Shown here: positions 59,477 through 64,000 of the stretch, in pieces
How positions within the stretch are numbered: position 1 is the stretch's first letter
Layout of the letters: each line of letters begins with the position of its first letter
Assembly: GCA_031272885.1 (NCBI GenBank)
Contig: JAISSX010000036.1
Location: forward strand, 1-64,000
Reading direction: 5' to 3'
DNA: 64,000 bases
Source: Bifidobacteriaceae bacterium
GTDB lineage: Bacteria; Actinomycetota; Actinomycetes; Actinomycetales; WQXJ01
Made by a program: the position numbers and the translations under genes
Notes under the pieces: model-generated
What the model was told of the DNA's origin: nothing
Database searches by the model: none
The model's input: only the letters and a program-made list of their open reading frames with translations

Positions 59477-61405
59477 ATGCGTTCCAACCCTGTCCGCCGG
59501 GCCACCACCCGCCGGGCCACCACCCGCCGGGCCACCGCCCGCCGTGCCGTGGCCACCCTCGCCGCCATTGCCGTAGCATGCGGCATCGGCGCCCTGTGCC
59601 ACCAAGCCGAACCCACCAATGCCGCCTTTGCCGACGCGGAAGCCGCCCAGACGGAACTGGGTGCGCCGCTGCTGGATGACATTGTCCTGATCGACTCGTA
59701 CATGCCGCGCACCGTCTTGAACGTTCGCGGCGACGGCTCCAGCGCCCTGATTTGGGGCTTTCGCCACCGGGGCGTCTCCGGCCAGGGCACCCTGATTGTG
59801 GACCCGGCAGACCCAGCCAGCGAGGTCACCCTGCCGGATGGCCGCACCATCGACCTGATAGTCGGCGCCACCCACTTGTTCGACGCCTACACCCAGTATT
59901 CGCAAGCCGTGGCCGCCCTGGCCGGGGACGGCACGGTCTGGACCTGGGGCTGCAGCGCTGCGTCAGATGGCCGCCGCTGCGGGCGGGACGTGCCGGCAGG
60001 CGACAAACAATCGGGCAGCGAGGGCACCTATTCCACCCTGCCCGGCCAGGTGACCGATTTCCGGCCGGCGCTGGCGGCGGGCGAGACCATCATCGACCTG
60101 AAAACCACCCGCCAAACCTTCTTTGTGTTGACCAACCTGGGCAATCTGTATAGCTGGGGTGAATCGGCCGGCACCGGTTCGGTGGGCCAGGGTACGGCCA
60201 CCAATAACCCTTCAAGTACCAACCGCAAGAGCCCCCGCCCACGCCGCATCCTGACGGGCGTGCACTCCTTCGGCGTGGGCCCGGCCAACGCCTGGGCGGT
60301 GGTGACCTGCGGCTGGTCCGTTTCCACGTGGGTGGAAGGCACGGTCTACAACGATGCCACCACCGAGACCCAGGGCACGCCCCACGGTAACTGCACCAAC
60401 GCCACCACCGCCGATGACGTGCCACCCAGCCTGGTCTTCTGGGGCGCCAACAACGCCACACCCGACTCGTACGTGGCCTACGGGCGCTACGTGGGCGGCG
60501 GCCAGCCGGCCGGCTCGGCCGCCAGCGGCTTGGACGCCACCCCGGTCAACAGCTATTACTTCATGTCCCCGGCGGAGTTGAAATCGTCCAACCCGCTGCG
60601 CCAGGTCTTCGACACCATGTACACCAGCGCCACCACTTACGCGGTCGGCTCAGACGAAGACACGGGCGTCCGGATGGGTTCGGCCGGCAGGGTGGCCGGC
60701 AACGGTTTCCAGGCCCTGAAGGCGGACAACGGCACGTTCCAGTACATCAGCGGACATGCCTTCGGCTCCCAGTTGCTGGCGCGCGACCGCGCCGGCCAGA
60801 TGCACCTCTACACCTGGGGCTACGACGGCTTCTACGGGGCCGGCCACACCGCCAATCCACTGGTGCCAACCGAAGTCTCGCTGGGCGGCGGCGTCACGCC
60901 GGTGATGGTGCGCCACAGCCGCGACATGGTCTTCATCCTGGATTCCACCGGCTCGCTGTGGGCCTATGGCACGCGGCGCTTCTCCGATGACTTCCCGGCC
61001 ACCGACGCCAACGGCAAGCTGGTGTTCGCGGCCGCCACCGCGGCCAGCGCGGCCCCACACGACGGCGCCGCGCCCGGCTTCCAGGTGCCCACCCAGTTGG
61101 TGTCGGATGACCCGGTCAGCCCGTTCTACCCCGGCCGGGCGCATGAGATCGCCTGCAGCGATTTCACCTGCCTGGTGGAGGACACCAGCGGCCACTACTG
61201 GAATTTCGGCGGCGGCTGGACCACCTTCACCATCGCCAATTGGAGCGACACCGTGTCCGACACCACCTGGCAGATCAAGGTGAACAACCCATACCTGACG
61301 GTGCGGGACTGGTGGGACTGCCGCAACACGCTGGCCCTCGACACCTATCCAAACGGCCTGGTCTGGCTGCACCGCGACGGGCAGTTCCTGACCACCTGCC
61401 CATAA
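59477..61405 (+). CDS. Exported RCC1-repeat protein
   Basis: A 642-residue exported protein. An Arg-rich N-terminus built on a 15-bp tandem repeat (RRATT units, 59495-59539) precedes a hydrophobic stretch (about 24-45) that ends NAAFADAEAAQTELG, similar to the SipW-type AF.D.E signal of the three genes that follow. The remainder contains several RCC1/BNR-like blades (GTVWTWGCSA, GNLYSWGESA, HLYTWGYDGFYGAG, GSLWAYGTRR), i.e. a beta-propeller with Cys pairs. It is probably a surface binding protein. No catalytic motif. Confidence 0.78.
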   Translation: MRSNPVRRATTRRATTRRATARRAVATLAAIAVACGIGALCHQAEPTNAAFADAEAAQTELGAPLLDDIVLIDSYMPRTVLNVRGDGSSALIWGFRHRGVSGQGTLIVDPADPASEVTLPDGRTIDLIVGATHLFDAYTQYSQAVAALAGDGTVWTWGCSAASDGRRCGRDVPAGDKQSGSEGTYSTLPGQVTDFRPALAAGETIIDLKTTRQTFFVLTNLGNLYSWGESAGTGSVGQGTATNNPSSTNRKSPRPRRILTGVHSFGVGPANAWAVVTCGWSVSTWVEGTVYNDATTETQGTPHGNCTNATTADDVPPSLVFWGANNATPDSYVAYGRYVGGGQPAGSAASGLDATPVNSYYFMSPAELKSSNPLRQVFDTMYTSATTYAVGSDEDTGVRMGSAGRVAGNGFQALKADNGTFQYISGHAFGSQLLARDRAGQMHLYTWGYDGFYGAGHTANPLVPTEVSLGGGVTPVMVRHSRDMVFILDSTGSLWAYGTRRFSDDFPATDANGKLVFAAATAASAAPHDGAAPGFQVPTQLVSDDPVSPFYPGRAHEIACSDFTCLVEDTSGHYWNFGGGWTTFTIANWSDTVSDTTWQIKVNNPYLTVRDWWDCRNTLALDTYPNGLVWLHRDGQFLTTCP

Positions 61406-61538
61406 GCCTGGACCATCAGCGGACAGCCTCTCAGCCAAGAGCGGTTCTGCCGGCGGCGAAAAACGCCCCGGCCCGGGAACAGGGCCAGCGCAAGGCGCGT
61501 TATACCAATTCGGAACCAACCAAGGAAGGAGCTGGGCC

Positions 61539-62216
61539 GTGGCCTTTCATGCCCGTGGGGAAACCGGCATGACAACCTCGCACAGCGGCCGGCCGTGGCG
61601 CCAGTTGGCGTCGCTCGCGGCCGCCTTCGGCCTGCTCGCCGCCGGCGCGGTGACGGGACTCACCCTGGCCACCTACGTGGACGGGGAATACGGTGCTGCC
61701 GCCTACGGCGCCGGGGCCCACAACCTGCAGGTTTCCCTGGACAACGCCACCTGGCAGGAGACGGCGCTCGATGGCGTCACCTCCGACAATGTGCCGGACA
61801 CAGGGGTGTTGACGCCCCTGGACCTGGGTGGTTCGACGCGGATTGTGCCGGGCGACCCCATGACCGGCTACCAGGCGACGTACTGGGTGCGCAACGCCCC
61901 CACCTCCACCACGGCCTCCCGCATGGTTTTCGAACTGGTTGACCAGGGCGGTTCCGACGCGGCGCTGCTGGCCTCCTTGCGTTTCGACGTGGCGGTCGAT
62001 GGCGCCGGCGTGCTCACAGACCAGACGTTCAGCCAGTTGAGCGCCACCGGCACGCCCCTCTTGTTGGACCAAGCCGCCGCCCCCGGCACGGCGCACCAAA
62101 TCACCCTCAAGGCCACTATCCCGGACCAGGGCGACAGAGCCTCCAACTGGGCCCTAGCCGAACAGACCGTCCACCTCCTGTTGGCCGTCTACGGCAGCTC
62201 CGTGCCCATCACCTAG
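61539..62216 (+). CDS. SipW-type signal exported protein, paralogue 1
   Basis: A 225-residue protein. After a hydrophobic helix come the motifs ATYVDGEYG and YGAGAHNLQV, the alternate-signal pattern shared with the next two genes. A beta-rich domain of about 160 residues follows. TasA and camelysin have the same pattern (AF/TFxDxE then N-L). The GTG at 61539 follows AGGAAGGAG; an ATG at 61569 is an alternative start. Confidence 0.72.
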   Translation: MAFHARGETGMTTSHSGRPWRQLASLAAAFGLLAAGAVTGLTLATYVDGEYGAAAYGAGAHNLQVSLDNATWQETALDGVTSDNVPDTGVLTPLDLGGSTRIVPGDPMTGYQATYWVRNAPTSTTASRMVFELVDQGGSDAALLASLRFDVAVDGAGVLTDQTFSQLSATGTPLLLDQAAAPGTAHQITLKATIPDQGDRASNWALAEQTVHLLLAVYGSSVPIT

Positions 62217-62219
62217 CTG

Positions 62220-62263
62220 CTCCCCCGCAGTACCTCCCCCGCAGTACAACCCCCCGCAGTACC
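62220..62263. repeat. Short tandem CCCCCGCAGTAC repeats
   Basis: Three copies of CCCCCGCAGTAC at about 62222, 62236 and 62251, in the leader of the next gene, just before its ribosome site GAAGGAC. Confidence 0.8.
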
Positions 62264-62283
62264 CCCCCGAAGGACAAACAGCC

Positions 62284-63000
62284 ATGTACAACCCGCTTCA
62301 TGCCCGGCCGAGCGCCATCGTGCAGGAAAAGGTGGCCGCCCGGCGTTTCGCCGCTGCCACCGCCACCCTTGCGCTAGGCGCCGCCCTGGCTACCGGCATC
62401 ACCCACGCCACCTTCACCGATGGCGAGTACGGCCACACCGGCTACACGGCCGGCCGCTACAACCTGCAGATCGCCGCCGATGTCGCGCCCAACCTGGCGG
62501 ACACCGACTGGAAGGAAACGTCCCCGGACGGCCAGCCGGACAACAGCCCGGAAACCGGTGTCACCACTCCCATCAACCTGACCACCACGGGTGGTTCGGC
62601 CATGATTCCCGGCCTGGCGGACTCGCAGGCCACCACTTTGGCCTACATCAAGAACGCCTCGAACGTCGATTCAACCCTGAACCTGTCGCTGGTCGACCAA
62701 ACCACAACCACCTCCGCCAACGCGGCCGCCAAAGGCCTGCTGCGCTTCGACCTGGTGGTGGATGAACTGGAACAGGGTGAAGCGCCCATGCCGGTGTATG
62801 TGGCCTACGGCAAGGCGCTGACCGACCTGGATTCGGATGCCAAGGCGCTGCCCATCGTGGCTGCCGCCCCGCCCGGAGCGATGTACCGCATCACCCTGAC
62901 AGCCACCATGGCCAACGGCACCGACCAGGCCGCCACCAACGCCGCCCAAGGTGGCCAAGTGGACTTGTGGCTGGCGGTCAAAGGGGCCGCCACAGCCTAA
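62284..63000 (+). CDS. SipW-type signal exported protein, paralogue 2
   Basis: A 238-residue protein: basic start, hydrophobic helix (about 23-43), then ATFTDGEYG and YTAGRYNLQIAADV, clearly paralogous to its two neighbours. The motif DWKETSPD parallels WQET in paralogue 1. One tail-proximal segment AMYRITLTATM matches HQITLKATI of paralogue 1. Predicted fibre or matrix subunit. Confidence 0.75.
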   Translation: MYNPLHARPSAIVQEKVAARRFAAATATLALGAALATGITHATFTDGEYGHTGYTAGRYNLQIAADVAPNLADTDWKETSPDGQPDNSPETGVTTPINLTTTGGSAMIPGLADSQATTLAYIKNASNVDSTLNLSLVDQTTTTSANAAAKGLLRFDLVVDELEQGEAPMPVYVAYGKALTDLDSDAKALPIVAAAPPGAMYRITLTATMANGTDQAATNAAQGGQVDLWLAVKGAATA

Positions 63001-63182
63001 GCCAACAGGCACACACAAGCTCGCCCAGCCGTGGCCTTGCCGGCCTGCGCACTGGGTGAACCTGCCCGTCACCAGGGAATCCGGCCCTCTGGCGGTCAGT
63101 CGGAAACGATGACGTGACCCCGACCCCCCGGCCGCCGGCCACGGCACCGCAAGACAGCCATACCCCCTAGGAGATAACAACC

Positions 63183-63923
63183 ATGACGATTCAACAACAA
63201 CCCACGCAGCCGTTGGTGGTGGTGGAGAAGTCGAAGCGGCGCCGCGCCGCCGGCATCATCGCCGCCTCGGCCATGGGCCTGGCCCTGGTGACCGGCGCGA
63301 CCATCGCCGCCTTCCAAGACACCGAATGGGTCAAGCCCGGTGACGGCAACGGCTACACCGCCGCCCGCTTCAACCTGCAGATTGCCCAAGGCATCGACGA
63401 ATACGACCTGACCACCACCTCGACCAACTGGCAGGACACGGCCCGCGTGGCGGGCGTGCCGGATGGCCCGCACGAAGAGGCCGCCGCCGTGGTGGCCCCG
63501 CTCGAACTGGGCGAGGCCGATGCCCTGGTGCCGGACGTGTTCCGCAACACCACCTTCTACCTGTTGAACGACGGCACCTCGAATCAGAGCCTGACGTTCA
63601 AGATGGTGGACGCCATGTCCAGCCCCACCACCGCCCAGGCGACCCTGCGGGACAACCTGGTCTTCCAGGTCAAGGTGACCAAAGTCCAGCGCAGCGGTGA
63701 CATCGTGAGCGGCTGGGATTCGGGGCAAACCTTCCCGAGCAACGGCACCTACAGCTGGAGCCAGGCCGCCTCCGGCCAGCAGATCGTGGTGACGGCTGAG
63801 CCGAAGGCCGTCTACAAGGTCGAGGTCCTGGCCTCTATCACCGAAGCCGGTGCGAAGGCGACCAACGTGCCCGGCACCACGGTGGACGTGCTCGTCTCCA
63901 CGGTGGCTACGCCCACCGCCTGA
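63183..63923 (+). CDS. SipW-type signal exported protein, paralogue 3
   Basis: A 246-residue protein: cytosolic start with KSKRRRAAG, hydrophobic helix, then AAFQDTEW and YTAARFNLQIAQGI, followed by NWQDTA. AAFQDTE is the closest of the three to the classical TasA/SipW motif. RBS is TAGGAG. The dedicated signal peptidase expected for such cargo is not in the window. Confidence 0.77.
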   Translation: MTIQQQPTQPLVVVEKSKRRRAAGIIAASAMGLALVTGATIAAFQDTEWVKPGDGNGYTAARFNLQIAQGIDEYDLTTTSTNWQDTARVAGVPDGPHEEAAAVVAPLELGEADALVPDVFRNTTFYLLNDGTSNQSLTFKMVDAMSSPTTAQATLRDNLVFQVKVTKVQRSGDIVSGWDSGQTFPSNGTYSWSQAASGQQIVVTAEPKAVYKVEVLASITEAGAKATNVPGTTVDVLVSTVATPTA

Positions 63924-63964: not shown

Positions 63965-64000
63965 ATCCCTGATGGCGGCCCGGCCCTGCGGCTCTCACCC

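Follow-up and report, generated by a model that had tools for sequence, protein, structure and literature searches.

An actinobacterial SipW cassette in which TasA-like paralogues are accompanied by an RCC1-type propeller protein

Most of what is known of SipW-TasA fibres comes from Bacillus and Clostridium. In the DNA analysed here, a stretch of 64,000 nucleotides from an uncultured Bifidobacteriaceae bacterium (the window; positions 1 to 64,000 of contig JAISSX010000036.1), four plus-strand ORFs follow one another at 59477-63923, and all of them, as read from their translations, bear a SipW-type signal. Three encode paralogues that recall TasA, and the one at their head encodes a beta-propeller. 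What place could a propeller have among the substrates of such a peptidase? Our analysis suggests that the cassette is probably a SipW-exported TasA-like fibre system with a co-exported propeller. SipW with TasA-like cargo is known; the cassette adds a propeller as co-substrate, in a set that recurs among actinobacteria.

Gene order and the adjoining peptidase

The first gene (59477..61405, + strand) encodes a 642-aa RCC1-type beta-propeller protein, characterized by Foldseek and N-terminal motif tests, with predicted cleavage at NA/AFADAE (the slash marks the cleaved bond). It is followed on the same strand by TasA-like paralogue 1 (61539..62216; LA/TYVDGEY, then YGAGAHNLQ), paralogue 2 (62284..63000; HA/TFTDGEY, then YTAGRYNLQ) and paralogue 3 (63183..63923; IA/AFQDTEW, then YTAARFNLQ). 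The strings on which the first-pass annotation built its reading, ATYVDGEY, ATFTDGEY and AAFQDTEW, each with Y.A...NLQ behind it, are all present in the three successive paralogue ORFs, as is AAFADAE in the upstream RCC1 ORF, and each of the four motifs sits behind a hydrophobic stretch. Paralogue 1 has a GTG start at 61539 preceded by AAGGAAGGAG, and an ATG is also present at 61569. At the start of the RCC1 gene, tandem repeats (window 59480-59545) encode RRATTRRATTRRATARRA, and the signal start is unusually arginine-rich.

The first-pass annotation had named a SipW-type peptidase just beyond position 64000 as a test of its reading, and one lies there. The sipW gene (64085-65167, + strand, outside the window on the same contig, C7) starts about 160 bases after the end of paralogue 3. 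Its product belongs to the SipW/ER-type signal peptidases, matching TIGR02228 at C7:64091-64546 with 81.6 bits against a curated cut-off of 51.85, and it carries the Ser/His catalytic motifs SGSMEP and VTHR, like its relatives. The start, at about 64085, has a ribosome-binding sequence ahead of MKILR, the same as in the relatives. Between paralogue 3 and sipW lies a perfect GC hairpin of 13 bp (63974-64013, + strand), of which the window holds the left part (63974..64000); possibly it acts as an attenuator that tunes the ratio of subunit to peptidase.

SipW above cut-off was found in 149 of the 297 genomes sampled in the source order, so that SipW itself is ordinary there. In a tree, eight cassette SipWs and the one on C199 of genome G396 cluster with a support of 0.77 (0.96 with two more), separate from the remaining SipWs that these genomes encode. 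The cassette SipWs of the source family also have a conserved tail past the last hydrophobic stretch, for example VRLPNGEVVKGLSKRDAERL (L005 7031-8167; L020, L017, L018, L019, L100).

Folds of the paralogues and of the propeller

The three paralogues are mutually related (profile E-values of 2e-83 to 6e-69, partly by construction, since the profile was built with the three included), and the genome has only four such proteins, three in the cassette and one at a further SipW locus on contig C73. Of the window proteins, paralogue 3 alone clears the SipW-dependent signal model TIGR04088, with 25 bits against a cut-off of 19. Every paralogue falls below the cut-offs of the TasA/camelysin families (PF12389, NF046066), and the paralogue profile has no match among solved structures.

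The first-pass annotation had called for structure prediction. The model of paralogue 3 (mean pLDDT 67.5, with a core near 85 and an N-terminal donor region of low confidence) has as its top structural match the TasA fibre, 8aur_A (Z 8.1, 144 residues, 3.9 A), although a Z of about 8 calls for caution and can come from a common arrangement. Lower matches include FimA, the cannulae protein CanA, archaeal bundling pili and a Sulfolobus filament, which we take to be mostly donor-strand fibre proteins, together with unrelated beta-sandwich domains. Foldseek by itself returned nothing useful for this model and missed TasA. With a Z near 8 and the Foldseek miss, we use 'TasA-like' for the paralogues in the sense of fold and signal, not of family membership. 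The assignment of the first-pass annotation to the TasA/camelysin type is supported by the fold, and by the SipW signal in one paralogue, and does not extend to family membership, for which all three fall short of the cut-offs.

For the RCC1 protein, Foldseek on the model returned RCC1-type propellers (UVR8, RCC1 and HERC; E 1e-13, target TM up to 0.69, from a low-confidence model), and its profile searched against the PDB matched HERC2 at E 8.9e-22. Confidence in the propeller model is low (mean pLDDT 51.9), so we take the fold class alone from it. The Pfam RCC1 repeats PF25390 (3e-13), PF13540 and PF00415 all stay below cut-off for the window protein, and the RCC1 label holds at the level of the fold, which is predicted to be an RCC1-type propeller and not the Ig-type fold of TapA.

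The shared export motif and its recurrence

All four cassette proteins have a small residue, an aromatic P2' residue and Asp at P4'. We scanned 94 genes of the genome, taken from the window and from four further stretches, for small-X-aromatic-x-Asp/Asn behind a hydrophobic stretch, which 34 of these genes have at the N-terminus. Five matched, namely the four cassette genes and the TasA-like gene at the C73 SipW locus. The motif in the four cassette ORFs is more than chance.

We also built a profile from the 52 N-terminal residues of twelve paralogues, with the RCC1 proteins excluded, and ran it on 1,647 ORFs. After the training set and one more paralogue, the next 15 matches all lie in SipW-related loci (L051-L054, L018, L029, L019, L007 and the window), and seven of the nine cassette-type RCC1 proteins are among the next 13 non-training matches (E 0.03-0.23). 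The RCC1 proteins of G013 and G109 stand at noise level (E 4.3 and 6.8), and the best control RCC1 protein among these ORFs does no better than E 8. Single E-values for the RCC1 proteins are weak, and the argument that these N-termini resemble those of the paralogues rests on the ranking. Weak matches of the N-terminal profile genome-wide, at C32 and C51, and of the paralogue profile at C31 were judged on reading not to be SipW cargo.

In the cassette-type RCC1 proteins, Asp at P4' is invariant and P2' is aromatic (both 9/9), despite propeller identity down to 20%. P12' is hydrophobic in seven of the nine (binomial P 0.003), where TasA has the donor-strand residue F39; this signal is exploratory, since the sequences are related and the position was picked with TasA already in view. 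The hydrophobic P5' of TasA (Ile) has no counterpart in the cassette proteins.

An RCC1 gene, one to three paralogues and sipW occur together in four genomes of the same family as the source genome (G015, G013, G004 and G007). Searching 396 genomes of the order with a profile adds two genomes of a second family (G109, G248) and two of a third (G288, G311); in these four the RCC1 protein has a SipW-type N-terminus and SipW lies a short way downstream, reduced in G248 to a fragment at the contig end. In a Propionibacteriaceae genome (L029), three paralogues precede RCC1, with a cassette-type SipW elsewhere, on C199. In this genome, a lone cassette-type SipW (L100 1566-2651), apart from the paralogue-RCC1 cluster, adjoins a purL-like gene. 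The RCC1 partner is rare in the order, the cassette type being found in 9 of the 396 genomes, and in a 395-genome sample of the class (including genomes of the source order) SipW-type RCC1 relatives at E 1e-20 were confined to the source genome.

The motif was absent from the 22 RCC1-type ORFs examined at other loci, some of which are N-terminally truncated, and SipW was absent from five control genomes with RCC1-type proteins (G235, G325, G080, G334 and G194). G002 has an RCC1 match without the motif, yet SipW genes elsewhere in its genome. The link between propeller and SipW is not a local accident, and the suggestion that the propeller is a co-exported partner is borne out by its conserved N-terminus and its SipW linkage across families. 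The set turns up in several related families, which makes the propeller a probable component of a surface fibre. In four of the genomes that lack SipW (G235, G325, G334 and G194), RCC1-repeat genes adjoin one another, many encoding 1,200-2,300 aa (L078-L083, L085).

A possible end subunit and its alternatives

From the gene order, the shared motif, the adjoining SipW, the TasA-like fold and the recurrence of the set, we infer how the cassette may work. The three paralogues and the propeller would leave via Sec, and their cleavage site, A/[AT][FY]xD with its aromatic P2', would suit the cassette's own SipW; E. coli LepB handles substrates with an aromatic P2' residue poorly, and SipW processes TasA (PMC10269814). 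Export of the cassette proteins is well supported. Once cleaved, the TasA-like paralogues would polymerise into a fibre through donor-strand exchange, as TasA does through its N-terminal donor strand (residues 28-38), a strand that the N-terminus of TapA resembles (PMC9674648). Fibre formation by the paralogues is likely. The propeller would be able to give a strand and has no obvious groove for accepting one; having the same kind of cleaved N-terminus and a fold that is complete without an added strand, it would most likely sit at a fibre end. The fold of TapA is likewise complete, which limits TapA to starting a filament (PMC10151520). We tentatively propose that the propeller is an end subunit with a TapA-like role: like TapA of Bacillus subtilis, it would hand the initial donor strand to the first subunit of the fibre, so that the fibre would begin from the propeller head and display it.

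The first-pass annotation had suggested, by inference, an adhesin or cap. To read the propeller as a secreted adhesin, free or bound to the wall, that shares the export route and never enters the fibre strikes us as doubtful, with a real precedent: in honeybee bifidobacteria, RCC1-repeat proteins are LPXTG-anchored surface proteins (PMC4449606), so that secreted RCC1 proteins of actinobacteria exist without any SipW. Those proteins have several RCC1 domains each and LPXTG wall anchoring; no LPXTG was seen in the propeller sequence. The cassette propellers, however, retain the aromatic P2' and the Asp at P4', recur beside TasA-like genes and in seven of nine cases have a hydrophobic residue at P12', as at F39 of the TasA donor strand (a position chosen post hoc), and the evidence is somewhat more in keeping with a donor-strand end subunit than with a free adhesin.

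The remaining alternatives concern the cassette as a whole. The paralogues might be exported without polymerising, as soluble secreted proteins, for example the proteases that the camelysin name suggests. We consider this improbable: the weak matches to Peptidase_M73 that speak for it (E 0.0028-0.038) are below cut-off and in the window proteins span only the signal region and the part directly following, and the structural neighbours of the paralogue fold are largely fibre proteins. That the shared motif is ordinary Sec chemistry, cut by a standard signal peptidase I with the neighbouring SipW a coincidence, we regard as very improbable. Small-x-Ala sites are indeed common to all signal peptidases, but among the sampled genes the motif otherwise occurs only in one at another SipW locus, and in other families SipW lies inside or next to the cassette. 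The fibre system with its co-exported propeller is our preferred reading.

Among known systems, tapA-sipW-tasA of Bacillus subtilis shares with the cassette a dedicated SipW beside its substrates, cleavage sites with an aromatic P2' and Asp at P4', the TasA-like fold and one extra co-substrate with a similar N-terminus. The cassette differs in having three subunit paralogues instead of one, with sequences under the TasA/camelysin cut-offs, and in having an RCC1 propeller as the extra co-substrate in place of the Ig-fold TapA, a protein reported to be non-conserved even within Bacillus (PMC10151520). The sipW-bsaABCRSD operon of Clostridium perfringens, which produces filaments (PMC7395162), likewise combines SipW with several secreted proteins, of which BsaA forms the filaments; no propeller is reported there, and its two-component system genes are without counterpart among the described cassette genes. 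The actinobacterial 'alternate signal' cargo (NCBIfam TIGR04089) is also exported and SipW-linked, but the SipW of the window cassette falls in a separate group, and the model is matched by a single member of our eleven-protein TasA-like alignment, most likely the one encoded at C73, and not by the window paralogues. Our literature search found no paper linking RCC1 with SipW or TasA, within a reach that left out most subscription papers.

The recurring propeller co-substrate suggests that unrelated folds can replace the end subunit of SipW-TasA fibres, which bears on how Gram-positive fibres start and what they present. The cassette makes the starter of TasA-like fibres outside TapA-bearing species a testable question.

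Two further SipW loci above cut-off are present in the genome, on contigs C24 and C73, and there is a weak match on C20. On C24 (L006 3-8423, 9018-10160) the second SipW adjoins a repeated-domain protein longer than 2,800 aa, whose N-terminal region, DAQSFPDSANW, is a possible SipW-type site. On C73 (L007 5626-11104) the third SipW adjoins the TasA-like protein, most likely the alignment member that matches TIGR04089 at 2.7e-21, and the gene next to that of the TasA-like protein encodes a repeat protein of 1,305 aa whose wall anchor is of LPYTG type.
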